Positions 17,762-37,041 of a stretch of DNA of 37,041 nucleotides are shown here, one piece after another. The notes below the pieces were generated by a model. That model saw nothing but the letters and a program-made list of their open reading frames with translations. It searched no databases and was not told the origin of the DNA. Every line of letters starts with the position of its first letter. Positions within the stretch are counted from its first letter, which is position 1. A program made the translations under genes and the position numbers. The DNA comes from Planctomycetota bacterium (GTDB lineage: Bacteria; Planctomycetota; B15-G4; JADJEK01): positions 1-37,041 of the forward strand of contig JACQZJ010000174.1 of the NCBI GenBank assembly GCA_016213895.1. Reading direction: 5' to 3'.

Positions 17762-17836
17762 AGGGGTCGATGCTCCAAGGCCGCGCTGCCGCAAGTGGTC
17801 TATTCAGAGGATCTTGAGCATCCAGCCAAACGCGCC

Positions 17837-17871
17837 TTGCAACATTGGAATTGAATTCCATGATTGCGTGA
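17837..17871 (+). promoter_or_regulatory. Promoter with operator-like palindrome, first DUF4143 ATPase gene
   Basis: An unusually A/T-rich patch. TTGCAA (17837-17842) and CATGAT (17859-17864, 4/6 to consensus) are 16 bases apart, and +1 would fall at 17871-17872, the ATG itself. Between them is a perfect palindrome with a one-base centre: TGGAATT (17846-17852), G, AATTCCA (17854-17860). No Shine-Dalgarno precedes the ATG. The arrangement resembles that at 35567-35605 before the second ATPase gene. Confidence 0.45.
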
Positions 17872-19068
17872 ATGATCGAGCGTTCCCTTGCGTCGCACGT
17901 CGCTCGCCTCCGGTGCGGCTACCCGGCCGTCTCCATCACCGGACCGCGCCAGTCTGGAAAGACCACCTTCGCCCGGGAGACCTTCTCGGACCTGCCATGC
18001 GTCAACCTCGAAAGCCCGCTGGAGCGAGCCGAGGTCGCCGATGATCCGCTTGGCTTCCTGGCGAGGTTCCCGGAGGGGGCGATTCTCGATGAGGTCCAGA
18101 ACGTCCCTGACCTGCTCTCCTTCCTGCAGGTGCGGATCGACGAGGACCAGAAGATGGGTCGTTGGATCCTCACCGGCTCACGACAGATGGAACTGACGCG
18201 CGGGGTGACCCAGTCCCTCGCCGGCCGGGTCGCGTTGCTCGATCTCCTGCCCTTCTCCCTCGCGGAGCTGGCCGATGCGCCGAGGCGGCCGAGCACCCTG
18301 CCCGACGCGGTCTTGCGCGGCGGCTACCCTGCGCTCTACGACCCGAGCCGCGACCTCGAACCCGCGCGCTGGCTCGAGAACTACCTCGCCACCCTGGTCA
18401 ACCGGGACATTCGGCAGATCCTCGAAGTGCAGAACCGCACGGCCTTCGATCGCTTCCTCGGGCTCTGCGCGGCCCGCACCGCGCAGATGTTCAAGATGAG
18501 CGAGCTGGCCAGGGACTGTGCGGTCGACAACAAGACGATCCAGGCGTGGCTCAGAGTCCTGGAGGAATGCTACGTCGTCCGCCTGCTGCGTGCTCACCAT
18601 CGGAACTTCGGCAAGCGGCTGGTGAAAAGCCCCAAGCTCTACTTCATCGACTCAGGCCTCGCCTGCCGCCTCTTGCACATCAGCGACGTCAACCAGCTCC
18701 GCGTCCATCCCCTGTGGGGCGCGCTCGTAGAGACCTGGTGCTTCGGCGAGATCCTGAAATCCCGCGTGCACCGCGGGGTTCGGCCGGACATGTGGTTCTG
18801 GCGCTCGAGCGACGGCATCGAGGTGGACATCGTCATCGAGACCGGCGGCGGCGTCTTGCTGCCCATCGAGATCAGGGCGAGCGCGACCCCGTTCCCGGCC
18901 GATGCCGCGGGCATCCGGAAGCTCCGCGAGCTGAGCAGCCGCGAGCCCGGCGCGGCCATCGCGCCCGGTCTGGTCGTCTACGCGGGCGCCGAGCAGCGGC
19001 CCGCAGGCGAGGACCGCTTTGTGCCGTGGAACGCCATCGCCGAGGCGTTGGCGGGCCGCGCCGGTTGA
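17872..19068 (+). CDS. AAA ATPase with DUF4143 domain
   Basis: 398-residue ATPase of the large AAA_14/DUF4143 group. Walker A is GPRQSGKTT (24-32) and Walker B ends in DE at 73-74 (AILDEVQ). LTGSRQ is the sensor-1 region. A winged-helix-like segment follows (FKMSELARDCAVDNKTIQAW). The C-terminal DUF4143 part has the outline of a PD-(D/E)xK nuclease (EVDIVIE, then PIEIRAS), but the usual final lysine is arginine here. The cellular role of this family is unknown; members are often scattered, horizontally moved and sometimes grouped with toxin-antitoxin genes. The first in-frame ATG is used; no ribosome site is seen. It converges on the GH127 gene. Confidence 0.88.
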   Translation: MIERSLASHVARLRCGYPAVSITGPRQSGKTTFARETFSDLPCVNLESPLERAEVADDPLGFLARFPEGAILDEVQNVPDLLSFLQVRIDEDQKMGRWILTGSRQMELTRGVTQSLAGRVALLDLLPFSLAELADAPRRPSTLPDAVLRGGYPALYDPSRDLEPARWLENYLATLVNRDIRQILEVQNRTAFDRFLGLCAARTAQMFKMSELARDCAVDNKTIQAWLRVLEECYVVRLLRAHHRNFGKRLVKSPKLYFIDSGLACRLLHISDVNQLRVHPLWGALVETWCFGEILKSRVHRGVRPDMWFWRSSDGIEVDIVIETGGGVLLPIEIRASATPFPADAAGIRKLRELSSREPGAAIAPGLVVYAGAEQRPAGEDRFVPWNAIAEALAGRAG

Positions 19069-19095
19069 TGCGGGCCGATCGCCCGGCGCCGCAGC

Positions 19096-21486
19096 TCACT
19101 CGACCGTCCACTCGTGGATGCCGGCAGAGAAGCCCTCGGGGAGCCGAACCTCCAGGCGCAGGCCGGTGGTCAGGACCGGCTCGAACGCGACGCGGTTGAA
19201 GCGGTCCTTGTCCACGCCGAAGGGGCCGGCGGCCGCGACCGGCTTCCACGCGTCGCCGTCCCGGTAGAGGAGCGACCAGGAGGCAGGCACGCGGCACTCG
19301 CCCCGGCCGGTGTCGTCGAACCAGTAGACGCTCGCGCGCGAAACGGACTCTGCCTGCGCGAACTCGAGCTCCACCGTTTCGACGGTTCCCTTCCTCGGCC
19401 ACCAGTGGAAGAAGGGGACCTCGTGGTCCCCTGAGCTCGCGGGCTCGAGGCGGTCGTTGATCGCCCCCGGGTTCGTGCCGCCGGACGTGGTGAGCCGCGC
19501 CGCCGAGGCGAGAGTCGGCCGCGGCAGGGGACGCGCCGCCCTGCGCTCGCCTGCCAGCCAGACTGTCATCTCGCCCGGGCCCCGGTGCGCCCAGACGCAG
19601 TAGGGAACGGCGAGGAACTCCTGCTCGGCCTCCTCGACCGTCCCCTCCGCCTCGCCCTGCGCGAACGCGATCCCGCGGCCGCGCACGACCGTGACCCCGC
19701 CGAGCAGGTCCGCGCGAGGTTCGGCGCTGAGTTCCGCGTCATCCGGCACGAGCAGGTTCAGCACGCGCCCGCCAGCGTGATCCGCACCCTCGAGGCAGTA
19801 GACGATCGGCCCGCGCTGCAGCGCGACCCTGCCCTGGTTCTCGCGCACCTTCTCGTCGCAGAGCACGCGCCGCACCGGCATGGGCAGCTCGAGCTCAATG
19901 ACGTCCCCCTTCTGCCACACGCGCCGCACACGCGCGAAGCCTCCCTCCAGCTCGAGCGCGCAGGGCGCGCCGTTCACGCTGAGCTCGGGCGAGGGCGCCC
20001 CCGCCTCGGCGAAGCGGTAGAGGCCGCCCGGCAGCGCCTCGCCGCGCGCCCAGCCGGGAACGCGCACGTACACCGTGAACTCGGCCTCGCGCTCCGGTTC
20101 GAGCACGAGGCGCACGTCCCCGTCCCACGGGTAGCGCGTCTCCTGGCGCACGAGCAACGCCCCCTGCCCCATCTCCACGCGCGCCTCTCCCGCGGCGAAG
20201 AGGATGACGAAAAGCTCGTCTCCGCGCTGCGCGTAGGCGTAGCCCGGGATCGAGGGGATGAAGCGCGCCACGTTGCCCGGGCAACAGGCGCAACCGAACC
20301 ACGGGCTGCGCTGGTGCTGCCCGCGCGACTCGAGCGGGTTGTCGTAGAAGAAGGCGTCGCCGCCGAGCGACACGCCCGAGAGCACGCCGTTCATGAGCAC
20401 GCGCTCCAGCACGTCGGCGTACTTGGCGTCCGCGTGCAGGAGCACCATGCGGTGGTTCCACATGGCGTTGCCGATGGCGGCGCAGGTCTCGCAGTAGGCC
20501 GTCAGGTTCGGCAGCTCGTAGTCCTCGCCGAAGGCCTCTCCGTCCCCGCGCGCGCCCACGCCGCCGGTCACGTAGAGCTTCCTGCCAACGACGTTCTCGA
20601 AGAGGCGGTCGATCGCCCGCACGTATTCCTGGTCGCCGCACAGCGCGGCCACGTCCGCCATTCCGGCGTAGAGGTACGTGGCGCGCACGGCGTGGCCCAC
20701 GGCCTCCTCCTGCTCGACCACCGGCAGGTGGTCCTGGCTGTAGGCGCCGTACAGCTCGCGGCCGCGCGCGCGACCGCGCTCGTCGAGAAAGAACTTCGCG
20801 AGCTTCAGGTACTTCTCGTCGCCCGTGGCGCGAAAGAGCTTCACCAGCCCCATCTCGATGACCTGGTGGCCGGGCGGCGCGCGCAGCCCCTCTTCGCCGA
20901 AGGTGCGCGCGACCAGGTCCGCGTTCTTCAGGGCCACCTCCAGGAGCGAACGCTTGCCCGTGGCGCGGAAGTGCGCGACCGCCGCCTCGTAGAGGTGCCC
21001 GGCGTTGTACAGCTCGTGGCTGCCCGAGAGCCTGGACCAGCGCTCGGGACCGAACCACCTCTCGAGGCGCGTGGCGCCGTTCGTGCGGCAGGTGTAGAGG
21101 TAGCCGTCGTCTTCCTGCGCCGCGGCGATCTTCTCGATCAGGCCGTCCAGGTACTGCTCGAGGTCGGGATCGCGCCGCACGCTGAGCGAGTAGCTCGCGC
21201 CCTCGAGGATCTTGTACGGGTCCGTGTCGTCGAACGGGAAGTCGCCGCGGTGTTCCCCTTCGAGCAGGCCGCCGGCAATGGCGAAGTTGTCGATGCGGCC
21301 GGTCTCCTCGCACTTGGCGAAGGCGTAGGGGATGGTCACGCGCCGGTTGGTCTCGAGGCGCGGCGCGAAGAACTCGTCGGCGAAGCGCACGGCGGTGAAG
21401 GGGACCGGCTGCAGCGGATAGTCCGCCGCGCCGCTCGCGCTTCCCGCCGCCGCGAACACGGTGAGAGCCGCTGCCATCCATCGCAT
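19096..21486 (-). CDS. GH127-type glycoside hydrolase (beta-L-arabinofuranosidase-like), secreted
   Basis: 796-residue exported enzyme. Residues 1-20 are a Sec signal (MRWMAAALTVFAAAGSASG). The (alpha/alpha)6 domain follows, with the GH127 zinc/thiolate site intact: E333 and C335 in YCETCAAIGN, C401 and C402 in CACCPGN. In characterised GH127 enzymes the equivalent cysteine is the nucleophile and removes beta-L-arabinofuranose. Other family pieces are LETNRRVTIPYAF, GSHELYNAGH and YVTGGVGARG. After about residue 650 an extra domain (GTNPGAINDRLEP through RFNRVAFEP to the end) looks like a carbohydrate-binding or discoidin-like module. ATG 21486 has AGGG upstream. Divergent from the EF-hand methyltransferase gene. 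Confidence 0.92.
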   Translation of the reverse strand: MRWMAAALTVFAAAGSASGAADYPLQPVPFTAVRFADEFFAPRLETNRRVTIPYAFAKCEETGRIDNFAIAGGLLEGEHRGDFPFDDTDPYKILEGASYSLSVRRDPDLEQYLDGLIEKIAAAQEDDGYLYTCRTNGATRLERWFGPERWSRLSGSHELYNAGHLYEAAVAHFRATGKRSLLEVALKNADLVARTFGEEGLRAPPGHQVIEMGLVKLFRATGDEKYLKLAKFFLDERGRARGRELYGAYSQDHLPVVEQEEAVGHAVRATYLYAGMADVAALCGDQEYVRAIDRLFENVVGRKLYVTGGVGARGDGEAFGEDYELPNLTAYCETCAAIGNAMWNHRMVLLHADAKYADVLERVLMNGVLSGVSLGGDAFFYDNPLESRGQHQRSPWFGCACCPGNVARFIPSIPGYAYAQRGDELFVILFAAGEARVEMGQGALLVRQETRYPWDGDVRLVLEPEREAEFTVYVRVPGWARGEALPGGLYRFAEAGAPSPELSVNGAPCALELEGGFARVRRVWQKGDVIELELPMPVRRVLCDEKVRENQGRVALQRGPIVYCLEGADHAGGRVLNLLVPDDAELSAEPRADLLGGVTVVRGRGIAFAQGEAEGTVEEAEQEFLAVPYCVWAHRGPGEMTVWLAGERRAARPLPRPTLASAARLTTSGGTNPGAINDRLEPASSGDHEVPFFHWWPRKGTVETVELEFAQAESVSRASVYWFDDTGRGECRVPASWSLLYRDGDAWKPVAAAGPFGVDKDRFNRVAFEPVLTTGLRLEVRLPEGFSAGIHEWTVE

Positions 21487-21533
21487 GCCCTGCCACTCTA
21501 CCTGCCGGCCTGGCGCGGCGCTGGCGCGCCATG

Positions 21534-21544
21534 TAGAACGTCCC
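21534..21544 (-). promoter_or_regulatory. Shared 11-mer upstream of the GH127 gene
   Basis: On the minus strand GGGACGTTCTA runs into CAT, giving a -10-like TACATG about 45 bases before the GH127 start. The identical 11-mer lies upstream of the M1/M28 peptidase gene (31429-31439), where it runs into a better -10, TATTAT. It may be a shared promoter or regulator site, but chance cannot be excluded. Confidence 0.25.
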
Positions 21545-21594
21545 GCACGCGCCTCGCGCAGGAGGCCCTGCCGCTTGAACCACCAGAGGTGACC

Positions 21595-22392
21595 ATGAAG
21601 ATGCTGGCTGCCGCCCTTCTCGCCCTCGCCCTGGCCCTCCTCTCCGCCGGCCAGGGCGGCGAGGCGCCGGACTCCTGCCCGCTCGTCCTCGCGCTCGACG
21701 CGGACGGCGACGGGACGCTCTCCCGCTCCGAGGTCGAGGGCGCCTCGGCCGCGCTCCTCGGGCTCGATTCGGACGGAGACGGCGCGCTCTCCCCGGAGGA
21801 ATACGGCCGCGCGCGCCCCGCCGCCGGCCGCACGCCCGAAGCCGCTTCCCGGATCCTCGCGGTGCTCGGCGAGCTGAACCAGGACCGGGGCGGAAACATG
21901 AACGTCCCGGAGGAGGACGGCCGCCTGCTGCGGCTCCTGGCCGAGGCCGCGGGCGCGCGGAACGCGGTCGAGATCGGCACGTCGAACGGCTACTCCGGCC
22001 TATGGATCTCCCTGGCGCTCTGCTCGACCGGCGGCAGCCTCACCACCTTCGAGATCGACCCGGAGCGGGCACAGCGCGCGCATGAGAACTTCGCCAAGGC
22101 GGGCGTCGCCGACCTCGTCACCATCGTCCTCGGCGACGCCCACGAGGAAGTGCTGAAGCTGCGGGAGCCCATCGACGTCCTCTTTCTCGACGCCGACAAG
22201 CCGGGCTACGTCGATTACCTCGAGAAGCTCAAGCCGCTCATCCGTCCGGGCGGTCTGGTGCTCGCCCACAACATGAGGCGGCCGGAGCCCGATCCGCGCT
22301 TCATCGAGGCGATCACGACCGATCCCGAGCTGGAGACGCTCTTCCTGCACATGGAAGACGCGGGCATGGCCGTCACGCTGAAGAAGCGCTGA
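21595..22392 (+). CDS. Exported EF-hand / SAM-dependent O-methyltransferase
   Basis: 265-residue fusion. Residues 1-19 are a hydrophobic export signal or anchor (MKMLAAALLALALALLSAG). Two canonical 12-residue EF-hand loops follow at 35-46 and 58-69 (DADGDGTLSRSE, DSDGDGALSPEE), so Ca2+ binding is expected. From about 80 to the end is a class I methyltransferase of the caffeoyl-CoA/catechol O-methyltransferase type: EIGTSNGYSG (SAM loop), FEIDPERA, VLFLDADKPGYVDYL (metal/catalytic Asp region). SAM is not normally available outside the cytoplasm, so export of this enzyme is odd. ATG 21595 has AGAGGTG upstream. The acceptor is unknown. Confidence 0.85.
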   Translation: MKMLAAALLALALALLSAGQGGEAPDSCPLVLALDADGDGTLSRSEVEGASAALLGLDSDGDGALSPEEYGRARPAAGRTPEAASRILAVLGELNQDRGGNMNVPEEDGRLLRLLAEAAGARNAVEIGTSNGYSGLWISLALCSTGGSLTTFEIDPERAQRAHENFAKAGVADLVTIVLGDAHEEVLKLREPIDVLFLDADKPGYVDYLEKLKPLIRPGGLVLAHNMRRPEPDPRFIEAITTDPELETLFLHMEDAGMAVTLKKR

Positions 22393-22396
22393 GGCG

Positions 22397-22420
22397 GCGG
22401 GCGCCAGCGAGGGCGCCCGC
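22397..22420. terminator. Bidirectional hairpin between convergent genes
   Basis: Perfect 9-bp stem GCGGGCGCC / GGCGCCCGC with loop AGCGAG fills the gap between the methyltransferase gene and the convergent chemoreceptor gene. No T-run on either side. Confidence 0.5.
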
Positions 22421-22425
22421 ACGCG

Positions 22426-24150
22426 TCAGAAGTCGGCGAAGCCGTCCTCGCCCACGGCGGCGCCGACCGGCTGAGGGCTCTCCTCCGCCCGATCCCGCGG
22501 CGCGCGCATGCGCGGCTGCTCAGGCGGAGCCTCCCGCGCCAGGGATGACTCCGCCGGGGCCGTCCACACGGACTCCGTCCGGGCCGCCGCGCCCTGCTGC
22601 TCCCGGCGCTCGCGGTCGACGACGACCAGCGCCTCCAGCTCCTCCACCACGTGGCCGAGCGATCCGGACTGCGACTTCAGCTCCGCGGCAGCCGCCGCGG
22701 ACTCCTCCGCGCACGCAGCGTTCGCCTGCGTCACCTTGTCCACCTCGCTCACCGCCGTGAACAGGCCCTGCATGCCCTCGGATTGCTCGTGCGTCGCGCG
22801 CGTGATCGCCTCGACCAGCGCCGACTGCTCGTCGCTCGCCGCCGCCATCTGGTCGATGAGGTTCATCACCGTGGTCACTCCCTCGCCGATCTTGCCGAGA
22901 GCCTGCTGCACCGTCTCGCCCACGGCAAAACCGTGGTCGGCGTTCTTCACCGACTCCTCGATCAGATCGGCTGTCTCCGTGGCCGCGGCCCCGGAGCGCT
23001 GCGCCAGGCTGCGCACCTCCGACGCCACCACCGCGAAGCCCTTCCCCGCCTCGCCGGCGCGCGCCGCCTCCACGGCCGCGTTCAGCGCCAGCAGGTTGGT
23101 CTGGAAGGCGATCTCGTCGATCGTCTTGATGATCCTGCTGGTCTTCTCGGACGAGGACTTGATCTCCTTCATGGCCGCGCCGAGCTTCTCCACGGCTTCC
23201 TGGCCCACGACCACGTCGCCGTGCACCAGATCCGCCTTGCCCTTGGCCTCTCGCGCGCTCACCGCGTTGTGCTTGGCCCGCTCGTTCACCTGGGCGGCGT
23301 TCTCGGCGGTCTGCTTGACCATCGCGCTGACCTCGTTCACCGAGGCGCTCGCCTCCTCCAGGCTCGCCGCCTGCTCGCTCGCCCCGGCAGCCAGCGACTG
23401 GCTCGAGGCAGCCACTTCCGCGGAGGCACAGTTCACCTGGGCGGCGCCCTGGCGCAGGGCCAACGCGGTCTCCTTCAGGCGCCGCGCGATGCCGCGCGCC
23501 ACGAACCACGCCATGCCCACGCCCAGGAGCATCGCCACCAGGGCAAGCGCTCCCACCAGCGCCTGCGTCAGCGAGGCCGTGCTCAGCGTTTCGGCGTTGG
23601 CCTCGTCGGCCACGCCGCGCACCGCGTCCCGTGCCCGGCCCAGCAGCACCTGCATGTCTTCCAAGGCTGGCCGCGTCGCCTGCGCGTACAGAGTCATGAC
23701 CTGGCTCGCACGCTCCGCGTCCTTTGAACCGGCCGTCCCGCGTCCGGCCAGGACTTGCTTGATCTCGCCGGCGGACGAGTGCAGCTTCGCGTGAACGCCC
23801 TCGATCTCCTTGAGGATGGTCACCAGCCCGGGCACGGCTTGCTGCGCCTCGACTCGAGCATCGCCGTACATCCATTGGCCGAACGCGCACTTGTGATCGT
23901 CCGTTTGCACGTCGAGGGCTCCGCCTTCCTCGTCGAAGACCACGGACCTGACCTTGTCTCCCCACTTGAGGTGGTCGATCTCCCTCTCGGCCAGCCCGGT
24001 GATGAGCAGGTTCTTGGCGACGGAGCCGCGCGCGTTGTTGCTCATGCTGTGGATGCCGATGAAGCTCGTCGCACCCATCGCCGCCAGCACGGCAAGGACC
24101 GAGCCGAAGCCCCATCCAAGTCTCTTGCTCACCGTCATGGTCGTGGCCAC
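22426..24150 (-). CDS. Methyl-accepting chemotaxis protein with N-terminal CZB zinc domain
   Basis: 574-residue chemoreceptor. The first membrane helix is about 11-33 and the second about 193-217. Between them is a chemoreceptor zinc-binding (CZB) domain with the full 3His-1Cys set: H60 (DHLKW), C88 ([12 protein letters not shown]), H120 and H124. The cytoplasmic part is a long coiled coil with the standard hairpin tip [21 protein letters not shown]. The tail ends in DGFADF. CZB domains sense zinc or hypochlorous acid; most occur at the cytoplasmic end, so a placement between the membrane helices is less common. Start GTG 24150 with GAGGAG eight bases ahead; ATG 24138 is possible. No other chemotaxis gene is nearby. 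Confidence 0.92.
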
Positions 24151-24336
24151 GGTCGGTTCTCCTCTCGATCAGTTTCCTCTGGTCAAAGTAGTGGCCCCCT
24201 TCCACGACAGAAGCACGGCGCCGTCGTGTTCCCGCGCCTGCAGATTCGGAGATTCCCAGAACTGGACTTGAGCCATTCTGCAGGAGCCGCGCGTACGCCC
24301 CCTTGCCGCGCTCCGGGCCGTGAGGCGCACGGGCTG

Positions 24337-24990
24337 TCAGATCAGGCCGTGCTCGGCCTTGAAGGCGGTCCAGTCGCGCTTCAGCCTGAGGAACTCCCCG
24401 ATGTCTTGCGCCAGCAGGAAGGGGTTCGTCAGGCGCTCGAGCGCGAGGGTCGAAGACGGGCGGCAGCCGTAGTCGTGGCCGGGCCAGACGGTGGTCTCTG
24501 CCGGCAGCTCGGCGAGCACGCGCCGCAGGCTGTCGTGTTCCCGGCGCGCGTCGCTCTCCGAGGAGGTGCCGCCGATCTTGCCCACGAAGAGCAGGTCGCC
24601 GGTGATCGCCACCTTCAGCTCGGGCAGGTGGAACAGGAGGTGATCATCGCAGTGTCCCGGCACATGCAGCACGCGCAGCTGGTAGGCGCCGATGGCAAGC
24701 ACCTCGCCGTCCTCGAGGGGCAGGTCCGGCGGGAGCGGCGCACCGCGCCAGGCGGCGATCCGCGCGCCCGTCTCGCGCTTGAGTTCGCCGTTGCCGTTCA
24801 CGTGGTCGCCGTGGCCGTGCGTGTTCAGGATGTGCGTGATCGCCAGCCCCTGCGCGCGCGCCCGCTCGAGCGCGAGCCGCGGGTGGAACGAGGGGTCGAT
24901 GACCACGGCCGCGCGCGCCGCCCGGTCGCCCAGCAGGTAGGCGAAGTTGCGGTCGCCGCCGATCCGGATCTGCTCGAGAATGAAGTTCAT
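24337..24990 (-). CDS. MBL-fold metallo-hydrolase (glyoxalase II / persulfide dioxygenase-like)
   Basis: 217-residue metallo-beta-lactamase-fold protein. The metal site is complete: THGHGDH (H58, H60, D62, H63), VPGHCDDH (H113), ITGDLLFVGKIGG (D132) and WPGHDYG. This pattern belongs to hydroxyacylglutathione hydrolases and the related persulfide dioxygenases (ETHE1). I start at ATG 24990; a GTG at 25011 would add seven residues. The upstream gene encodes a DUF2892 membrane protein, a domain often attached to rhodaneses in sulfide oxidation, which tips the balance slightly towards persulfide chemistry. There is no rhodanese in the window to settle it. The 186-base gap between this stop and the chemoreceptor start holds nothing I can name beyond the latter's GAGGAG. 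Confidence 0.88.
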   Translation of the reverse strand: MNFILEQIRIGGDRNFAYLLGDRAARAAVVIDPSFHPRLALERARAQGLAITHILNTHGHGDHVNGNGELKRETGARIAAWRGAPLPPDLPLEDGEVLAIGAYQLRVLHVPGHCDDHLLFHLPELKVAITGDLLFVGKIGGTSSESDARREHDSLRRVLAELPAETTVWPGHDYGCRPSSTLALERLTNPFLLAQDIGEFLRLKRDWTAFKAEHGLI

Positions 24991-25018
24991 GGCCGCGCCG
25001 CGCCGCTCCACGGCGCCG

Positions 25019-25219
25019 TCAACCGCCGTCCTTCCGCGCCACGCCCAGCCAGCGCAGGATGTCCTCCATCAGGCACCAGCGCGTGAACGCGGACTGCAGC
25101 AGGTTCAGGCCGACGAAGGCGGTGAAGAGCAGCCAGTAGGGGCTGTGCCAGCGGCCGAGCGCCAGCGACGCCAGGATCATGATCCCGGCAATGGCTCGAA
25201 CGTATCTTTCCGTGGTCAT
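25019..25219 (-). CDS. DUF2892 (YgaP transmembrane-like) small membrane protein
   Basis: 66-residue protein beginning MTTERYVRAIAGIMI and containing two hydrophobic helices, the second WLLFTAFVGLNLLQSAFT, then RWCLMEDILRWLGV. This matches the DUF2892 domain that forms the membrane part of the rhodanese YgaP and often occurs alone. GGGAG lies upstream of ATG 25219. It is probably cotranscribed with the MBL-fold gene 28 bases downstream. Confidence 0.8.
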   Translation of the reverse strand: MTTERYVRAIAGIMILASLALGRWHSPYWLLFTAFVGLNLLQSAFTRWCLMEDILRWLGVARKDGG

Positions 25220-25319
25220 GGGCAGCCGCTCCCGCGTCACGCTCCAGGGTAGCCGCCGGCCCGTTTCCTGAGAAGGGCCGGCGCCGTGCGCGATGGACGG
25301 CGGCGGCGCGCCCTGTACC

Positions 25320-28022: not shown

Positions 28023-28026
28023 GCGC

Positions 28027-31000
28027 CTACCGCGCCTCCACCGTGACGTCGAAGGTCATGCGCGCGTTGTCGCGCAGCAGGGCCACCGCGACCGTCTGGC
28101 CCGGAGCAAGGGCCTTCAGCAGGCCGGAGAACTGCTGCAGGTTCGCGACCTTCTGGCCGTCGAGCTCGATGAGCACGTCTCCGGCGAGGATGCCGGCGCG
28201 CGCGGCCGGGGAGTCGGCCACGAGCGAGGCGACCTTCACGCCCTCGCCGGCAAAGGCGAAGTCGGGAACCGTGCCGAACAGGATCCGGCGGCCCGCGGCG
28301 GGCGCTTGCGGCGCCTGGGCAGCGCCGCCGCCCGCGACGCGGGCGGTGAGAGGCTCCTCGCGCTCCGCCAAGTAGACCACGGCCTCCTTCACAAAGGCCG
28401 CCACGCGCACCAGGCCCGCGGCATCCACGCGCTCGGGAGTGTCGCTCGGCCGGTGGTAGTCCTCGTGCGCGCCGGTGAAGATCTGCACCGCCGGGATCCC
28501 CTGCTCGATGAAGCTCTGCTGATCGGAGCCTTCGGCCGCTCCGGGCGCGATCTGGCACTCGAGGCCGGTGACGTAGCCCGCGCCGCGGAAGATGTGCTGC
28601 CACTCGTCCGCCGTGCCCGCGCCGAGCACCTGCAGCGTCCCGCTGGACAGGCGGCCGACCGTGTCCAGGTTGATGGCGCCGCGCATGCCCTCGCGCGGGA
28701 AAGCGCCGGGATCGGCGGCGAAGCGCTTCGATCCGAGCCGGCCCGCCTCCTCGGCCGAGAAGGCGATGAAGACCACGCTGCGCGCGTGCCTGGCCTCGCG
28801 CGCGAGATGGCGCGCCAGCTCGATCAGGACCGCGACGCCGCTTGCGTTGTCGTCCGCGCCCGGGTGGATCTTCCCGGCCTCGCCTTCGCGCGCCTCGGGC
28901 CAACCGCGGCCCAGGTGGTCGTAGTGGGCAGAGAGGATCACCGACTGCTCCCGCCAGTCAGCGCGCGTCCCGGAGAGCACTCCGATCACGTTCCGCGCCG
29001 CGCACGGCTGCCCGTCAGGCCCCTCTTCCACCGTGAACTCCTGGAACCAGCCGCCCGCGCAGCCCGGCTCGAGGCCCGCGGCCGCGAATTGCTCCGCCAC
29101 GTAGTCCGCCGCCACGGCCAACCCATCGCTCCCCAGGCCCCTGCCTTCCATCTCGCCGGCCGCGAGGCGCTCCACGTGCCGCCGCAGATCCTCCTGCGAG
29201 AACAGCGCGGGCAGCTCGGCGAGCGCCGGCCGCGCCTCTGGCTCGCTCGGAGGCAAGGGCGCCCCGCGCTCGCCAACAGGCCTGAGATCCACGCGAAGCG
29301 GCGACTCGAGCGCCGCCCACTGTCCCTTCACCACGTTCGTGGGCTCGCCGCCCTCGAACGCGAGATAGGAGTACTTGCCGTAGTGAGGCAGCTTCCGCCC
29401 GAGGCCGGGAAACGCCGCCTCGGGATCGACCACGAGCCAGCCGAGCGCGCGCTCCGGGTCGGCGGGATGGCGCCGCACGGCCAAGAAGGAGTGCGCGGCA
29501 AGCGGCGCCCTCTCCGCGCCGAAGGACACGCTCTCCTCGTCGAGCGCGATTCCGCTTTGTGGATCGCGCGCAAACAGCTCCTCGGCGAAGCGGTTCTTGC
29601 GGCCGAGGATCCAGATCGAGCGTCCGGCCGGAAGCGCCCGCAGGTCCGCGTCGAGAGCCACCTCGATCGCGTGGCTGTCGCTTCGCCACCCCTCGACCAG
29701 CGCGCGGTACTGCTCGCGCGCTGAATCGGCCTCGGCCGACGGGAGCACGGCCAGGATGCGCTCCTCGCCGAAGATCTGCCCGAGAGACGGCGGCGTCTCG
29801 CGGGGATCGAGCAGGCGGAAGAGGTCGAAGTCCGGATCCACCTCGCGGAGGATCGGCGGCGCGGCAGAGCGCACCTCGAAGTCCGCGCGCTCTCCCGCGA
29901 GATCGACGAACGCGCGCTCGCCTCCTGCCGCGGTCCGGACCGCGAGCGGCACGCGCAGGGAGAAGGGCTCGGCTGGCGCGCTCTGCAGGAGCACACCGCG
30001 CACGCGGAAGCCGCCGCCCTCGGGGACGACCCCCTCGACCGTGACCGACAGCGATGGAGCGTCGCTCTTCCCCACCCACTGCTCGAAGAACGCCGCGAGG
30101 TCCAGACGGCTCGCCTCCTCGAAGCACGTGCGCAGGTCCGCGAAAGACGCGCGCTTCTCGCGGAAGGCACCATAGAAGCGCGCCAGCGCCTGGCGGAACA
30201 CCTCGTCGCCCGTGCGCTGCCGCAGCATGTGGAAGAGCATGAGCGCCTTGCCGTAGCCCACGGCCTCGGTGGCGGCGCTGTGCCGCTCGCGGAACTCGCT
30301 GAGCGGAAAGTCGCGCCCCGCGCGCACGTAGTCGCGGTACTTCTGCAGCGTGCTCCTGCGGTACTCCGCGCCCTTGCCGCGCTGCTCCTGGATGAGATGG
30401 TCGGCGAGATAGGCCGTCAGTCCCTCGCACCAGTTCCCCGACTCGTAGTCCACGAAGACCGAGTTGCCCCACCAGTTGTGCAGGATCTCGTGTGGATAGG
30501 ACGAGTGCAGGATGAAGGGGAAGCGGATCACGGCCGGGCCGAGCAGCGTGAAGGACGGCATGCCGAACCCGGTCTCCCAGAAGTTCTCGACCAGCGCGAA
30601 CTTGCCGTAGGGATAAGGCCCGATGAGCGCGCGGTACATCTCGATGTACTGCGCCGTGGCCGTGAGGTACTGCGCGGCCAGGGCATCGTCCGGCTCGTGC
30701 AGGTAGACCTCTGCCTCCACCGCGCCAGCCGCCTCGAGGTACGCGACCAGCGGGCCGCCCACGAGATGGATGTCCTCGGTCCGGCCCTGAGATCTCCACA
30801 CGGCCCGTCCCGCCTCGTTCCGCGCCGTGCCCTCGCCCTGGCCGATCACGCGCCAGGTCGCGGGCTGCCCCACGTCGAGGGCGAACTCGACGTACGTTCC
30901 CGCGAAGACCGGGTACCAGGACCCGCCTCCGGCCAGGTACACGCCTTCCTCGCCGAGGAAGCCCTCGGTGTCTCGGAAGCCGCGCGTGTACTCCTCCTTC

Positions 31001-31356
31001 TGGTCGGAGAGGCCGAAGTGCACGCGTCCGGCATAAGCCAGGGTGACGCGGCCGTCCGCCGGCGCCGAGTCGATGCGATAGCGCGCGAGGCGCAGGCCGG
31101 GCGCGAGCGCTGCGCCGCCCGGGGCCGCGACTTCCGTCACGGCCGGATCGGCCGCGCTCACCGTGAGCGCCGCGTTCAAGACGAACTCGACCGCGCCCGC
31201 GCGCAGCGTCTCCGGCAGGACCATCCGGTCCACGACCGCCAACTCGCCCTGCGCCGGATCCAGCTCGACCTTCATCTCGTGCCGCACGGACTCGGCCGCG
31301 AGCGCCGCCTGGCAGCACGACGCCAGCCAGACCGCGAGGAGCACCGTTCGCTTCAT
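28027..31356 (-). CDS. M1 aminopeptidase-like / M28 peptidase / PDZ fusion, exported
   Basis: 1109-residue secreted protein carrying two metallopeptidase domains. After a signal (MKRTVLLAVWLASCCQAALA) an M1-like domain has HEILH (H289, E290, H293) and WCEGLTAYLAD with E311 as third zinc ligand, one residue closer than the classic HExxH-x18-E; the helper tyrosine is in GYGKALMLFHML. The GAMEN loop is replaced by ENFWETGFGMPSF. Around 480-690 is a mixed region I cannot assign. An M28 domain then shows SAHYDHLG, HPGADDNASG, FSAEEAG, INLDTVGR and EDYHRPSD, a full di-zinc set. The last ~90 residues are a PDZ domain (SPAARAGILAGDVLIELDG). Both sites look intact, so it should release amino acids or dipeptides outside the cell. 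Confidence 0.92.
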   Translation of the reverse strand: MKRTVLLAVWLASCCQAALAAESVRHEMKVELDPAQGELAVVDRMVLPETLRAGAVEFVLNAALTVSAADPAVTEVAAPGGAALAPGLRLARYRIDSAPADGRVTLAYAGRVHFGLSDQKEEYTRGFRDTEGFLGEEGVYLAGGGSWYPVFAGTYVEFALDVGQPATWRVIGQGEGTARNEAGRAVWRSQGRTEDIHLVGGPLVAYLEAAGAVEAEVYLHEPDDALAAQYLTATAQYIEMYRALIGPYPYGKFALVENFWETGFGMPSFTLLGPAVIRFPFILHSSYPHEILHNWWGNSVFVDYESGNWCEGLTAYLADHLIQEQRGKGAEYRRSTLQKYRDYVRAGRDFPLSEFRERHSAATEAVGYGKALMLFHMLRQRTGDEVFRQALARFYGAFREKRASFADLRTCFEEASRLDLAAFFEQWVGKSDAPSLSVTVEGVVPEGGGFRVRGVLLQSAPAEPFSLRVPLAVRTAAGGERAFVDLAGERADFEVRSAAPPILREVDPDFDLFRLLDPRETPPSLGQIFGEERILAVLPSAEADSAREQYRALVEGWRSDSHAIEVALDADLRALPAGRSIWILGRKNRFAEELFARDPQSGIALDEESVSFGAERAPLAAHSFLAVRRHPADPERALGWLVVDPEAAFPGLGRKLPHYGKYSYLAFEGGEPTNVVKGQWAALESPLRVDLRPVGERGAPLPPSEPEARPALAELPALFSQEDLRRHVERLAAGEMEGRGLGSDGLAVAADYVAEQFAAAGLEPGCAGGWFQEFTVEEGPDGQPCAARNVIGVLSGTRADWREQSVILSAHYDHLGRGWPEAREGEAGKIHPGADDNASGVAVLIELARHLAREARHARSVVFIAFSAEEAGRLGSKRFAADPGAFPREGMRGAINLDTVGRLSSGTLQVLGAGTADEWQHIFRGAGYVTGLECQIAPGAAEGSDQQSFIEQGIPAVQIFTGAHEDYHRPSDTPERVDAAGLVRVAAFVKEAVVYLAEREEPLTARVAGGGAAQAPQAPAAGRRILFGTVPDFAFAGEGVKVASLVADSPAARAGILAGDVLIELDGQKVANLQQFSGLLKALAPGQTVAVALLRDNARMTFDVTVEAR

Positions 31357-31424
31357 CGTCTTGTCGCTTCCTGCGCGCCGCGGCGCGCGCGGGAGGCGCG
31401 CGTTCCGGTGCTACGCGAAGGCCC

Positions 31425-31439
31425 ATAATAGAACGTCCC
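31425..31439 (-). promoter_or_regulatory. Putative -10 and shared 11-mer of the M1/M28 peptidase gene
   Basis: Minus strand TATTAT (31425-31430) is a good -10 with +1 near 31418 and a leader of about 60 bases. It forms the end of GGGACGTTCTA, the 11-mer also found before the GH127 gene. No -35 hexamer is visible. Confidence 0.35.
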
Positions 31440-31470
31440 CGGGAGCGGCGCCGATGCCGTCCCGGGGACG
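31434..31470 (-). terminator. Hairpin downstream of the Lys-C-type protease gene
   Basis: Perfect 11-bp inverted repeat CGTCCCCGGGA / TCCCGGGGACG with a 15-base loop, about 40 bases after the protease stop. On the minus strand it is followed by TTCTATTAT, moderately T-rich, so it is a good candidate intrinsic terminator. It overlaps the proposed promoter of the next gene. Confidence 0.55.
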
Positions 31471-31511
31471 CTCGAGAACGGGAGCTTTGGGCAGGTCCCT
31501 CGCAGTGCTCC

Positions 31512-33194
31512 CTACGGACAGAAGGTCACGATCAGGCCGTTCGAGGCCTGGACGTCGCCGCCGAAGCCGGCGTCACGCGCGACATACTGGTAGTACTTGG
31601 TCAAGCCGACCATGCCCGAGGTGATCGGGATGTTGATCGAGCAGCCGCCGGACCCATCCGTGGCGCTGTAGGTGCGCAGGTAGTTCGGCCCTCCCACGAG
31701 CACCGTGCCCCAGGAGTAGGGCACGCTCGCCTGCGACTCGCCCGACAGCATGCAGCAGAACTGGTTGGGCTTGGCGCCCGCCAGCACGATGTAGAAGCTC
31801 GGGTTGCCCACCGTGGGCTCGCCGCTGGCGCTGACCAGGGCGACGGTGCCGGTCGAGCCGGTCTCGCCCGTGCCGTAGTTCGAGGGCGACGGGCAGGCGT
31901 TCGGGTCGAGGCCGGCGATGGAGGTGGCGCCGGTGTTGAGCGGGTCGAGGTACGCCTTGACGCCGGTCCACGACTTCGCCAGCCGGCCGAAGTAGTCGTG
32001 ATACGGGTAGGAGCAGTCCGACTGGCCGCCCCAGAGCTGGCCGATGAAGCGGTGCGCCACGCTGTAGAGCGGCGAGCCGGAGGAGCCCCCCTCGGTCGCG
32101 CCCACGTCCCACTGGACGATGTGCCAGTCATTGCCGCTCTTCGAAGGCGCGTTGTAGTCGTGCGAGATCTTCTTCGGATCGCCCGCCGGATGATGGATGC
32201 ACGCCGTGCTGCTCGGAGCCACGTCGCTGCGGTCCCAGCCGGCGTAGTACACGCCGTAGCTCGCCGGGATGGCGGGCGTGATCTTCACCAGCCGGTAGTC
32301 GATGGTCGTGTCCACGACCATCTGCGTCGAGCCCTGCACCGTCTGCGTGAGGGGCGCGGTGCCCGTGCCGCAGCCGGACCTCTGGTAGTTGAAGTAGAAG
32401 ATGGCGCTGCCGAGCGTGCCGCAGTGGCTGGCGGTGATGAAGTACTGCGTGCCGTCATTGGCCGTGTTGTTCAAGAGCGAGCCGGTGCAGAGGTACGGAC
32501 CGGTCAGGATTCGCGCCACGGCGTCGATCTCGTTCTCCCAGCCCACACCCTGCGGGCAGTTGACGTCGACCTCGCAAGCGCCGGCCGCCTTGGGCGATCC
32601 GGTTCCCTTGATGATGTAAACGATGATCTCCTGATAGGCGTGCACCACTTCGCACACCTCCAGTTCGCCCGGGAACTCGGCCCAGGAGGGCTCCATGTAC
32701 TCGAGCGTGATCGCGTCGTTCAGGACCGCCTCGGTGGCGAAGCGGCCGTCCGGGTTCTCGTTGAGCGCGTTGTAGCTGCCGAGCACGTGGGAGTGGTCGT
32801 CGTTGTAGATGTACAGCTCGGCGCCATCCGGCACGTGGAAGCGGCTGAAGGTCAGGTTGATCGAGAGCGCGTCGCGCGAGGCGATGCGCAACCGCCAGAG
32901 GCGGGCGCCGTTCGGCAGATCCTCCCACGCGCCGGAGTTCGTGAAGTTCAAGGCGACCGGGAAGGACTTGCCGAAGCGGAAGGGCTGGTTCTTGGGCCGG
33001 CGCGCGTCCTCCATGAGGAGGACCGCCTCGTTGACCGGCGGCATCACCTCGCTCGGGGCCTGCTGGGTGAGCGGCACGGTGAAGCTCGGGGGCTCACCCC
33101 CGTAGCTGATCTGCGCCTCGGCCGGAGCGGAGGAGATGGCGTAGATGAGCGCCGACAGAGCGCCCACGACGAGAAGACGAACGGGCTTGACCAT
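31512..33194 (-). CDS. Secreted lysyl-endopeptidase-like serine protease (S1, Lys-C type)
   Basis: 560-residue preproprotease. Signal 1-28 (ends SSAPAEA). The propeptide, with FHVPDGAELYIYNDD, matches the Achromobacter lysyl endopeptidase group. The trypsin-like triad is complete: H257 in ITASHCG, D299 in TTIDYRLV, S372 in EGGSSGSPLY. Many cysteines (YLCTGS, RSGCGTG, TACIHH, SDCSYP) suggest disulfides. From about 440 to the end is a separate module (FYIVLAGAKPNQFCCML through YQYVARDAGFGGD to SNGLIVTFCP), of the type seen at the C-termini of planctomycete exoproteins; it may serve sorting or surface attachment (inference). It cleaves after lysine or a similar residue. Confidence 0.9.
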   Translation of the reverse strand: MVKPVRLLVVGALSALIYAISSAPAEAQISYGGEPPSFTVPLTQQAPSEVMPPVNEAVLLMEDARRPKNQPFRFGKSFPVALNFTNSGAWEDLPNGARLWRLRIASRDALSINLTFSRFHVPDGAELYIYNDDHSHVLGSYNALNENPDGRFATEAVLNDAITLEYMEPSWAEFPGELEVCEVVHAYQEIIVYIIKGTGSPKAAGACEVDVNCPQGVGWENEIDAVARILTGPYLCTGSLLNNTANDGTQYFITASHCGTLGSAIFYFNYQRSGCGTGTAPLTQTVQGSTQMVVDTTIDYRLVKITPAIPASYGVYYAGWDRSDVAPSSTACIHHPAGDPKKISHDYNAPSKSGNDWHIVQWDVGATEGGSSGSPLYSVAHRFIGQLWGGQSDCSYPYHDYFGRLAKSWTGVKAYLDPLNTGATSIAGLDPNACPSPSNYGTGETGSTGTVALVSASGEPTVGNPSFYIVLAGAKPNQFCCMLSGESQASVPYSWGTVLVGGPNYLRTYSATDGSGGCSINIPITSGMVGLTKYYQYVARDAGFGGDVQASNGLIVTFCP

Positions 33195-33351
33195 GGAGCG
33201 GATCCTCGCAGGGTTCGGGTACTCGGGGCATCTGGGCGAAGCAGCAGAACTAATGTAGTACGGGAAGGCTGTCCCACGAAAGGGGGAGCGTCAAGTCGCT
33301 CGGCGAGTTGGGCTGCGGTGCGCGAGGTGCTCGTGGCGCGGCAAGCGCCGG

Positions 33352-33370
33352 CGCGCCAGAGTCTGGCGCG
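33352..33370. repeat. Intergenic hairpin downstream of the first alpha/beta hydrolase gene
   Basis: CGCGCCAG / CTGGCGCG with a 3-base loop (AGT), extendable by CGG/CCG across a bulged G. It lies in the 256-base gap 33195-33450, whose left part (33200-33300) holds the A/T-richer upstream region of the protease gene (minus-strand TACATT at about 33250, no convincing -35). No T-run follows the hairpin on either strand. Confidence 0.35.
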
Positions 33371-33450
33371 GCCGCGGCGAGCGGCGGCGCGCCGCGCGCG
33401 GACGTTGCAACGCCTGGCGGCGAAAGCCGTTAGGCCGCTTGCTGCCGCCC

Positions 33451-34269
33451 TCAGCGCGGCTGCAGGAAGCGACCGAGAAAGGCCTCGACCGCCTTCCAGT
33501 ACCCGGCGCTGTCCTCGAACTCCTGCCACAGCGCTTTCGAGCCGTGGTTTCCCTCGGTTTCCGGCAAGAAGGACGTCTTGTCCGCGGTCTTGAGAGCGTC
33601 GAAGATGGCCTTCCAGCTCTCCGCCTCGGAGCGCGCCGAGGTGACGAACACCGGACACTCGACGCTCTTCGCCGCCGCCTGGATCCAGTCCGCGGGCTTG
33701 CCCAGGCGCTCGAAGTACTCGCCTGGCGCGAAGCAGAGCAGGCCGTCCACGAGCTTCGGCTGCTCGGCCGCGACGCGGAGCGCGAGCGACGCCGAATACG
33801 AGCTGCCCCAGGCGAGCACCTTGCCCTTGGCGTAGACGGCGCGCGCGTGCTCCAGCGCCGCGATCAGGTCCTGCTCGGCCTCGAGGTAGCTCGGTTCCTT
33901 GCCGCCTTCTCGCGCGCGCTCCGCGGTCTCGTTCGCGACCTCGTTCATGGCGCCGCCCGAGCGCTGGTCGATGGCCAGGCAGTTGAAGCCCAGCTCGTTC
34001 AGGCGCTCCGCGATCTCGCGATACTCGCCGCGGCTTGAGCGCGCCTGATGGAAGAGCACGATGAAGGGCGTGTGCTCGTCCGCGTGCTTCAGGTAGAGGT
34101 CGGCGCCGATCTCGAGGCCGTCCTTGGACGCGAACGTGATCTCGCGCCGCGTCTCCTTCTCGTCCGCGGCGACCTCTTCCTGGCCCGAGTCCGCGCACGC
34201 CAGAACCGCGCACGCGACGGCCCAGACGAGAACCCACCTCGCTCGGGCGGAAACGGCGATCGCGCTCAT
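33451..34269 (-). CDS. Alpha/beta hydrolase lipoprotein (dienelactone hydrolase-like)
   Basis: 272-residue lipoprotein with signal ending in VLAC (C25). The alpha/beta-hydrolase fold shows FIVLFHQARSSRGEY (oxyanion strand-loop), LAIDQRSGG, the nucleophile elbow WGSSYSASL, and a late EGNHGS with the catalytic histidine. The strand-loop carries HQA instead of the usual HGxG, common in small exported dienelactone-hydrolase-like proteins. ATG 34269 has a strong GAGGAGGAA ribosome site. Substrate unknown; probably an ester or a short acyl group outside the cytoplasm. It lies 79 bases after the second ATPase gene. Confidence 0.85.
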   Translation of the reverse strand: MSAIAVSARARWVLVWAVACAVLACADSGQEEVAADEKETRREITFASKDGLEIGADLYLKHADEHTPFIVLFHQARSSRGEYREIAERLNELGFNCLAIDQRSGGAMNEVANETAERAREGGKEPSYLEAEQDLIAALEHARAVYAKGKVLAWGSSYSASLALRVAAEQPKLVDGLLCFAPGEYFERLGKPADWIQAAAKSVECPVFVTSARSEAESWKAIFDALKTADKTSFLPETEGNHGSKALWQEFEDSAGYWKAVEAFLGRFLQPR

Positions 34270-34348
34270 GGCTGTTCCTCCTCGGTCGTTCCAGGACCGC
34301 GCCTGCCTGTACGAGACTACCACTCGCCCGGTACGGGCGCCGCCGCCC

Positions 34349-35569
34349 TCACAGCACCCGCCACCAGGGCGCGGCGAGCACGCCGGGCGCAAGCCACGCG
34401 AGCGTGCTGCCGGTGTGCAGCAGGAGCGCCGCGCGCGCCTTGCGGCCGTACTCGGCGCGGAACGTGCGCAGGTGCCGAGCATCGCCGAGCCGCGGCCTCG
34501 CGCCAGCCTTGACCTCGATCGGCAGCAGCCGGCCGCCTGCCTCGATCACGAAGTCCACCTCCTCCCCGACGGCGCTGCGCCAGTAGAACAGCTCCGCGCG
34601 CTCGAGCCGCGCGTCGCGCCAGGCGAGGATGTCCTGCAGCACGACGTTCTCGAGGTGCGCGCCGCCCGGCTCGATCCCCTCCCCCAGGTGCAGCGCCACG
34701 CCGGTGTCGCCCCAGTAGAGCTTGGGCGACTTGATGAGGCGCTTGGTGCCGCTCACCGCGTACGCCGGCAGCCGCATCAGCAGATAGGAGGTCTCGAGCA
34801 GGTTGAGCCAGCGGTGCACCGTTGGTTGAGGGAGTGCGACGTCGCGGCCGAGTTCGGTCTGGTTCACGAGTTGCCCGAGCCGCAGGCAGGCCGCGCGCAT
34901 CAAACGGCGGAAGTCGGGCAGCGCGGCGATCGAGGACAGGTCCTGCAGGTCGCGCTCCAGGTAGGTGCGCACGTAGCCGTCGAACCAGATCGCGCGATCC
35001 TGCGCGGCTGCGAGGTGAACGCCTGGCGTCGGGAAGCCGCCGCGGCGCGCCAGCGCGCGCCAGTCTTCCGGCGTCTCGCGCTCCGCGGCGAGCAGATCGA
35101 GCCAGTCCTCGTCGCGGCTCTCGAGCAGCTCCTCCCAGAGGCCGCAGCGCCCGAGGCCGCGCTGCTCGCGCCGCGTCATCGGCCGGAGCGTGAGGTAGCT
35201 GGCGCGGCCGGCAAGCGACTCGGACACGCGGCGCGCCAGCAGCAGGTTGGCCGAACCCGTGAGCAGGAACTGACCCGGCCGCCGTCGCCGGTCGATGGCC
35301 CGCTTGACCGCGCGCAGGAGGTCGGGCTCGCGCTGCACCTCGTCCAGCGTGATCGGGCCGGGGCCGCCGATGAGCGCCTCCGGGTCGCGGCGCGCCGCGT
35401 CCTGTATGTCGAGGTCATCCAGGGACAAGCAGCGGCGCTCGGGCGCGAGCATCCCGGCCAGGGTGCTCTTCCCGGTCTGCCGCGCGCCGGTCAGCACCAC
35501 CGCGGGCATGACGCGCAGGCGGTCGATCAGGCTGCGGGCGACGAGGCGCGGGAGGACGGTTGTATCCAT
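34349..35569 (-). CDS. AAA ATPase with DUF4143 domain (second copy)
   Basis: 406-residue ATPase of the AAA_14/DUF4143 group, only distantly similar to the one at 17872. Walker A is GARQTGKST (28-36) and Walker B ends in DE at 76-77 (ITLDEVQ); LTGSANLLL is the sensor region. LGRDVALPQPTVHRWLNLLE is a winged-helix-like segment. The C-terminal PD-(D/E)xK-like motif EVDFVIE...LPIEVKAG keeps its lysine, unlike the first copy. I start at ATG 35569: it falls at the predicted +1 and needs no ribosome site; ATG 35587 would add MIIIRA. Biological role unknown. Confidence 0.87.
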   Translation of the reverse strand: MDTTVLPRLVARSLIDRLRVMPAVVLTGARQTGKSTLAGMLAPERRCLSLDDLDIQDAARRDPEALIGGPGPITLDEVQREPDLLRAVKRAIDRRRRPGQFLLTGSANLLLARRVSESLAGRASYLTLRPMTRREQRGLGRCGLWEELLESRDEDWLDLLAAERETPEDWRALARRGGFPTPGVHLAAAQDRAIWFDGYVRTYLERDLQDLSSIAALPDFRRLMRAACLRLGQLVNQTELGRDVALPQPTVHRWLNLLETSYLLMRLPAYAVSGTKRLIKSPKLYWGDTGVALHLGEGIEPGGAHLENVVLQDILAWRDARLERAELFYWRSAVGEEVDFVIEAGGRLLPIEVKAGARPRLGDARHLRTFRAEYGRKARAALLLHTGSTLAWLAPGVLAAPWWRVL

Positions 35570-35605
35570 GGCGCGAATGATAATCATTCATGCCATGAAT
35601 AGCAA
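35567..35605 (-). promoter_or_regulatory. Promoter overlapped by a 31-bp palindrome, second DUF4143 ATPase gene
   Basis: On the minus strand TTGCTA (35600-35605) and TATCAT (35577-35582, 5/6) are exactly 17 bases apart; +1 falls at 35570, next to ATG 35569, so the message would be leaderless. A near-perfect palindrome spans 35567-35597: 15-base arms around A35582 match at 13 of 15 positions, with core AATGATAATCATT. It covers the -10, the spacer and the start codon, which is where a repressor or autoregulator would bind. Confidence 0.6.
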
Positions 35606-36641: not shown

Positions 36642-37041
36642 GACGCGTCCTTTCTAGCCTGCGGCCGGCGAAGCGATGACGATCATCCCAACGGGGACGA
36701 CGGATTCCACCTCAAGTCGCGCATCTGCCCCCGACGCCCAGGGAAGCCGGCTGCGCCGCGCTGCTTCTTCGCCGCGCTTCCTGCGCGGCGCATCCCTGGG
36801 TGGCTTCCGCGGGCGCAAGCCCGCGGAAGCCCACCGCCCTCTTCCGTCGTCGTTCCCGCTGGATGCCCCGGACCGTGAGCAGCGGGACAGCGCGCGGGGC
36901 GGCGCAGCCGCTTCCCTGGGAAAGGGGGCAGTCGCGACGGCGTGCCCACTCGCACCTCGCGTACCTCACGCCGCTCTACCGCCTGCTTCGCCTCGATCGT
37001 GACGAGCCGCGTCTCGTTCCTCGCGCGCTCGATGCACCGGA
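36642..37041. other. Intergenic region with no convincing gene at the right edge
   Basis: 400 bases up to the window edge. Six-frame reading gives only Arg/Gly/Ala/Pro-rich frames that look like translated GC-rich repeats. On the minus strand the last ~80 bases read RCIERARNETRLVTIEAKQ, which is more protein-like and may be the tail of a gene from beyond the window, running without a stop to 36683; I could not identify it. The main content is the inverted-repeat element at 36737-36920. Confidence 0.4.
36737..36920. repeat. 184-bp inverted-repeat element with nested hairpins
   Basis: Sharp terminal inverted repeats: the left arm (36737-36759) and right arm (36899-36920) are complementary over 22 bases apart from one extra C in the left arm; both outer ends read CCCAGGGAAGC when oriented inward. 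Inside are a perfect 13-bp hairpin with a GCAA tetraloop (36802-36831, extendable to 36800-36834 with one bulged C), a 10-bp hairpin (TGCGCCGCGC at 36752, partner at 36783) and a 7-bp hairpin (TCCCGCT at 36854, partner at 36881). The 10-bp hairpin competes with the outer stem. It resembles a MITE or a REP/BIME-type element; no second copy is evident in the window. Confidence 0.6.

Follow-up and report, generated by a model that had tools for sequence, protein, structure and literature searches.

Two genes for AAA_14-DUF4143 ATPases lie in the 37,041-nucleotide (nt) stretch of Planctomycetota DNA analysed here (contig JACQZJ010000174.1; the whole stretch is called the window, and its guanine-cytosine content is 71%), and each of them starts under an inverted repeat. 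We consider it very probable that each protein, which joins an ATPase, a winged helix-turn-helix (wHTH) and a nuclease-like domain in one polypeptide, binds a private operator at its own start and represses its own leaderless promoter. The sequences of 288 AAA_14-DUF4143 genes from many phyla, many of whose genomes are metagenome assemblies, strongly support the ATPase itself as the binding partner of the palindrome; direct binding, dimerisation or another oligomeric state, and repression are what we infer from these data. The features of the two loci are the following:

17872-19068, plus strand: gene 1, 398 amino acids, AAA_14, winged helix and PD-(D/E)XK-like nuclease domain (DUF4143), assigned with Pfam, PADLOC and AlphaFold2.
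34349-35569, minus strand: gene 2, an AAA_14-DUF4143 ATPase, assigned with Pfam and PADLOC, its start chosen from relatives.
17835-17871, no strand: predicted operator of gene 1, centre 17853, from outward pairing, the register of the family and conservation in an orthologue.
35567-35597, no strand: predicted operator of gene 2, a palindrome of 31 base pairs (bp), centre 35582, covering the -10 and the start codon.
17837-17864, plus strand: promoter-like pair of gene 1, the best hexamer pair, TTGCAA (17837-17842), 16 nt and CATGAT (17859-17864).
35577-35605, minus strand: promoter-like pair of gene 2, the best hexamer pair, TTGCTA (35605-35600), 17 nt and TATCAT (35582-35577).

The original prediction, made from the window alone, placed a palindrome at the start of both genes. 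At gene 1 the core TGGAATTGAATTCCA was found exactly at 17846-17860, and only the extent of 15 bp proved too short: pairing continues outward into a symmetric element of about 37 bp with a second paired block, made of TTGC half-sites, 11 to 14 positions on either side of the centre. This element overlaps the -35, the spacer and the -10 and extends to the start codon, and its register and outer half-site agree with the pattern of the family. The 31-bp palindrome of gene 2 is also real, with 26 of 31 positions equal to the reverse complement (13/15 pairs), and it was stronger than 5000/5000 local shuffles. The gene 1 core alone reached p = 0.105 against local shuffles and is not significant as a single locus, and the case for the palindromes is therefore argued from the family. 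Both window palindromes are unique in their own genome when up to one mismatch is allowed. Between gene 1 (L002) and its same-genus orthologue L026 the operator is the sole well-conserved stretch of the shared intergenic DNA, and between gene 2 (L008) and its orthologue L052 the core TGAATGATTATCATTC is retained while the DNA just beside it has diverged; in both pairs the flanks are homologous on both sides. L053 and L119, the nearest other relatives of gene 2, have different palindromes at the same place.

For the family, start codons were set by rule, and control genes were called by a simple open reading frame (ORF) method with approximate starts. A start-proximal inverted repeat was called strong at a score of at least 10, and shuffles preserved dinucleotides. 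In the phylum set 44% of 139 homologues have a strong repeat. Among 123 control genes, drawn from four of the genomes used, the share is 1%; shuffles give 0.8%, and the far-upstream DNA of the homologues themselves gives 0.7%. The enrichment of start-overlapping palindromes expected from the two window genes is thus found in their homologues. The multi-phylum set (83 genes from about 22 named phyla) gave 51% against 2.6% in shuffles, and 67 further new genes gave 37% against 3.3%. Over all 288 genes the values were 44% and 2.2%, and at a score of at least 12 they were 34% and 0.3%. The signal is restricted to about -60 to +15, peaks at -30 and is lost by +30 and -150; coding DNA and far-upstream windows of the family genes gave no repeat signal, and little matching signal was seen near their stop codons. 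The centres cluster at -19/-20, -26, -28, -31 and -38, positions that all fall on the core promoter, and 116 of the 134 strong repeats are of odd length compared to 18 of even length, which indicates half-sites in a fixed register. The window's own genome has 15 DUF4143 places and a congener 22, with differing inverted repeats at most starts; two of the own-genome copies, L010 and L013, are decayed and have intact counterparts in the congener (L045 and L044, respectively).

The promoter-like pairs of the form TTGC(A/T)A followed by a -10, with +1 expected at the ATG, were likewise borne out, as CATGAT and TATCAT each end 7 nt upstream of the respective ATG. The gene 1 hexamer is a weak -10 with 4/6 consensus bases, and neither gene is preceded by a Shine-Dalgarno sequence. 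The ATG of gene 1 (17872) directly follows an in-frame stop. For gene 2, a second in-frame ATG at 35587 had been missed in the original prediction; the start is most likely 35569, because in the relative L053 the place of 35587 holds no ATG in frame. The same geometry is a hallmark of the family. In the phylum set, distances of 6, 7 and 8 nt from the end of TANNNT to the start are found in 14, 17 and 9% of the family genes and in 0, 0 and 0% of the controls, and Shine-Dalgarno-like words occur in 11% of family genes against 33% of controls. In the multi-phylum set TANNNT ends exactly 6 nt before the start in 36%, with 0-5% at other offsets. The spacing of the -10 thus puts the predicted +1 on the start codon, and because the -10 lies so close to the ATG the transcripts are probably leaderless.

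The link between palindrome and ATPase comes from covariation. For 127 genes (effective number 88) the operators were superposed by their centres and set against the alignment of the proteins, and mutual information was calculated over 356 protein columns and 17 operator positions. The strongest couplings between residue and operator position were 221-6, 221-5, 220-7 and 219-5 (z 13.8, 13.2, 12.8 and 8.3, respectively), compared to a z of 5.5 for the best coupled pair outside the wHTH, and the observed maximum was far above all 60 permutations. The phylum and multi-phylum sets, taken separately, each rank columns 219-221 at or near the top. In the AlphaFold2 model they make up the N-terminal end of the predicted recognition helix of the wHTH (220-232). 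The coupling cannot be explained by shared coding sequence, because about 650 bp separate the operator from the coupled codons downstream. In the window these codons are:

18526-18534, plus strand: gene 1 codons for D219, N220 and K221, the N-terminus of the recognition helix, from covariation and model; K221 goes with CC at positions 5-6.
34823-34831, minus strand: gene 2 codons for P-Q-P, equivalent to 219-221, from the alignment and contingency tables.

The individual associations read as a simple code. K221 goes with C at operator positions 5 and 6 (39/44 and 42/44 half-sites) and P221 with T at the same positions (65/70 and 57/70), while at position 7 H220 goes with C (59/68 half-sites), V220 with A (31/32) and Y220 with T (12/12). 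The pair CC accompanies K221 in 20/22 cases, against 1/105 otherwise. At gene 2, P221 predicts TT at positions 5-6, and this is observed in ATCATTC. The K221 state changes about 15 times on a tree for which the wHTH columns were left out, and independent pairs gave 7.7 changes in the same direction and 0 in the opposite one (median p 0.008); H220 with C at position 7 behaves like K221 with CC in this test. With the rules fixed from the first two sets, 53/68 bases were predicted correctly in unseen genes, compared to a mean of 23.1 and a maximum of 45 in 2000 permuted predictions. These results support the suggestion, made from the window, that the ATPase reads its own promoter. No clearly coupled protein residue was found by covariation for the outer half-site. 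Protein and operator similarity increase together (operator similarity from 0.32 to 0.76), and correlations of whole-domain identity with operator similarity were all 0.30-0.37, with no domain singled out. Paralogues of one genome differ in their operators, and the operator cores of paralogues within a genome are weakly lower in similarity (few pairs), which is suggestive of orthogonal operators within a genome.

Several observations weigh against this interpretation. In about 36% of the family no clear inverted repeat is seen (score below 8), and in some clades the palindrome is replaced by direct repeats in tandem, their period being 22-23 bp. Mutual information leaves some shared ancestry in; in the independent-pairs test P221 with T5, V220 with A7 and N221 with G5 go in the same direction without reaching significance; and some K221 half-sites miss out of sample (11/18 at position 5). 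The upstream design of Fic genes is similar, so that it is not unique to the AAA_14-DUF4143 family, on a small sample.

Direct repeats were found in 10.8% of genes against 0.7% of shuffles, 24/31 of them at a spacing of 22-23 bp. The clades with such repeats are represented by loci L003, L049, L018, L111, L130, L341 and L343, and by L232, L251, L261, L265 and L307. Because some clades show these 22-23-bp repeats, a similar half-site may be used there in another arrangement. Among Fic genes of the same phylum, strong start-proximal palindromes were present in 5/24 (21%; L275, L278, L279, L295 and L300), and TANNNT lies 6-8 nt upstream of the start in 21%, in a small sample with less certain starts; the upstream design may be common to other single-gene systems.

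Among the alternatives, the palindrome might be bound as a cutting or tethering site of the nuclease (for self-limitation, exclusion of related elements or homing), with the overlap with the promoter secondary. The PD-(D/E)XK-like residues are conserved across most family members, and a diversification of operator specificities among paralogues, including the slight drop in core similarity within genomes, would suit such a role. We nevertheless think this improbable, since the sites lie over the core promoter at a few fixed distances from the start, which only regulation requires, and since the operator of gene 1 is conserved even though the near-invariant nuclease-domain K335 is R in this gene (K in gene 2). 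A comparison of nuclease residues with operator strength had just 13 members without K335 to draw on.

To a similarly small degree we allow that the protein activates its promoter from the palindrome, as the controller proteins of restriction-modification systems do for themselves. Some palindromes have their centre between -38 and -46, where activators can bind; the commonest centres (-19/-20 and -26 to -31), however, cover the spacer, the -10 or +1, as is typical of repression. Because the operator overlaps the -35 and -10, binding most likely represses.

It is very unlikely that the palindromes are operators of an unrelated host regulator, with the ATPase not being the binder. Operators over promoters usually belong to separate regulators, and AATGATAATCATT in the gene 2 palindrome matches the core of the Fur box, so that Fur would be a possible candidate there; the orthologue L052 retains the core of this palindrome. 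Yet the operators differ among the paralogues of one genome and, in many phyla, follow the ATPase's own residues 219-221, and the nearest other relatives of gene 2 have different palindromes at this place. No regulator gene is conserved alongside, either: an all-against-all comparison of flanking ORFs revealed no conserved partner, the commonest neighbour being a generic ABC ATPase at 7/78 loci and other families reaching 3 at most.

RNA hairpins or terminators, or the ends of mobile elements, have next to no chance of accounting for the repeats. In their favour, the family is spread among phyla with variable copy number; with +1 at the start codon, however, most of the repeat would be untranscribed, and cassette or transposon ends are rejected by the weak signal near stop codons and by same-genus orthologues that share both flanks, the homologous flanks of L026 and L052 implying that the palindrome is not an insertion boundary at genes 1 and 2. 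Neither version explains the covariation with the recognition helix. Chance or an A/T-rich upstream composition, for which the gene 1 core taken singly leaves room, is already refuted at the level of the family by the dinucleotide shuffles, the control genes, the far-upstream and coding windows, the constraints on position and parity and the out-of-sample prediction.

The preferred interpretation, self-binding and self-repression, agrees with the make-up of the two proteins. Both pass the curated Pfam cut-offs (PF13173, 27 bits; PF13635, 28.1 bits), gene 1 with 82 bits (E 5e-23) and 158 bits (E 2e-46) and gene 2 with 78.8 and 122.4 bits, respectively, and the PADLOC PDC-S01 models are matched over nearly their full length (E 4e-103 for gene 1, 2e-106 for gene 2). 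The AlphaFold2 model of gene 1 (predicted local distance difference test score, pLDDT, 93.7) places the winged helix at about residues 205-258, after the ATPase core, where a winged-helix-like segment had been noticed in the original prediction. Gene 1 has a Walker A GPRQSGKT, a Walker B DE and retains D319 and E333. In its orthologue L026 the Walker A lysine is replaced by R (GPRQSGRT). Because of this R and of the R in place of K335 in gene 1, the lineage of gene 1 and L026 may be losing catalysis, with the operator kept.

The neighbours are unrelated: next to gene 1 are genes for a nucleoside symporter and a GH127 enzyme, and next to gene 2 are alpha/beta-hydrolase-like genes. In L247 and L248 (Coxiellaceae) the DUF4143 gene lies in dissimilar stretches between homologous flanks, a pattern like that of an exchange hot spot. 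Among the perfect inverted repeats in the window the longest has 13-bp arms GGCTTCCGCGGGC and a loop of 4; it lies apart from both genes at 36802-36831, is apparently intergenic and is possibly a terminator or a repeat element. A sequence search of the PDB gave no close homologue with a solved structure, and searches of PHROGs and NCBIfam gave no meaningful match for the window proteins.

Autoregulation through an inverted repeat is familiar from antitoxins and from repressors of the Xre and LexA type, in which the regulator's helix-turn-helix (HTH) recognises an inverted repeat that covers the core promoter of its own gene. The likeness lies in this mode of reading; the difference is that the HTH sits here within an AAA+ ATPase with a nuclease-like domain, has no partner gene and differs in specificity from gene to gene. 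The controller proteins of restriction-modification systems also travel with mobile, self-controlled promoters that are often leaderless and carry palindromic boxes; those are small separate regulators, whereas here the regulator and the presumed effector are one polypeptide. HTH autorepression as such is thus already known, and what is new is an ATPase-nuclease with its own operator reader and a code diversified across phyla. The closest solved folds are the archaeal AAA+ ATPases SSO1545 (2fna) and PAB2304 (2qen), with template modelling scores (TM-scores) of about 0.44-0.50; Orc1/Cdc6, likewise an AAA+ protein with a DNA-binding winged helix, scored lower. We know of no report of own-promoter control for any of these three.

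PDC-S01, a phage-defence candidate of PADLOC with the same AAA_14 and DUF4143 make-up as both window proteins, is described as a single gene for an ATPase joined to a PD-(D/E)XK-type domain, ranking fourth in frequency among the defence systems and candidates of prokaryotes, with validation pending for most such candidates and PDC-S01 itself called unvalidated (PMC12988326). An operator, a leaderless promoter and a DNA target are absent from its accounts in the literature searched and are proposed here; this open-access search, which may have missed earlier work, returned nothing on how the AAA_14-DUF4143 family is regulated or on DNA binding by its members. In Thermus thermophilus an AAA_14-DUF4143 gene is tabulated among those whose expression changes when plasmid DNA is present (PMC4406477), which is compatible with inducible control without showing it.

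According to our proposal, each gene would be a self-contained, self-regulated unit, whose protein would sit as a dimer or higher oligomer on a private inverted repeat over its own promoter, from -35 to +1. Residues 219-221, at the beginning of the recognition helix, would read operator positions 5-7 in both half-sites, and an outer half-site of a more general kind (about 9 to 15 positions from the centre, AATTTGCA-like) would probably contribute affinity. A leaderless transcript could make a horizontally moving gene expressible in a new host with no need of a Shine-Dalgarno sequence or of a regulator supplied by that host. That the ATP state or a signal from an invader frees the protein from its operator in a defence response is a conjecture, as is any link of operator binding to the nuclease-like domain. 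More speculative still, and in our judgement rather unlikely, promoter reading could be part of the effector cycle: a change of the ATPase triggered by invasion, or sites on invader DNA, would release or re-target the protein, derepression and arming of the nuclease would be one switch, and the diversified specificities of up to about 20 paralogues would keep the units orthogonal or mutually exclusive.

For nearly half of the family members the operators supply a predicted binding site and with it a biochemical handle, and the specificity code of three residues can be read from sequence. A design that is leaderless, self-controlled and free of neighbours would explain how these genes move between phyla with their expression retained. 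Because the Fic genes, a small sample, point in the same direction, there may be a general rule by which mobile systems that consist of one gene and have a winged helix within their protein bring their own operator with them.

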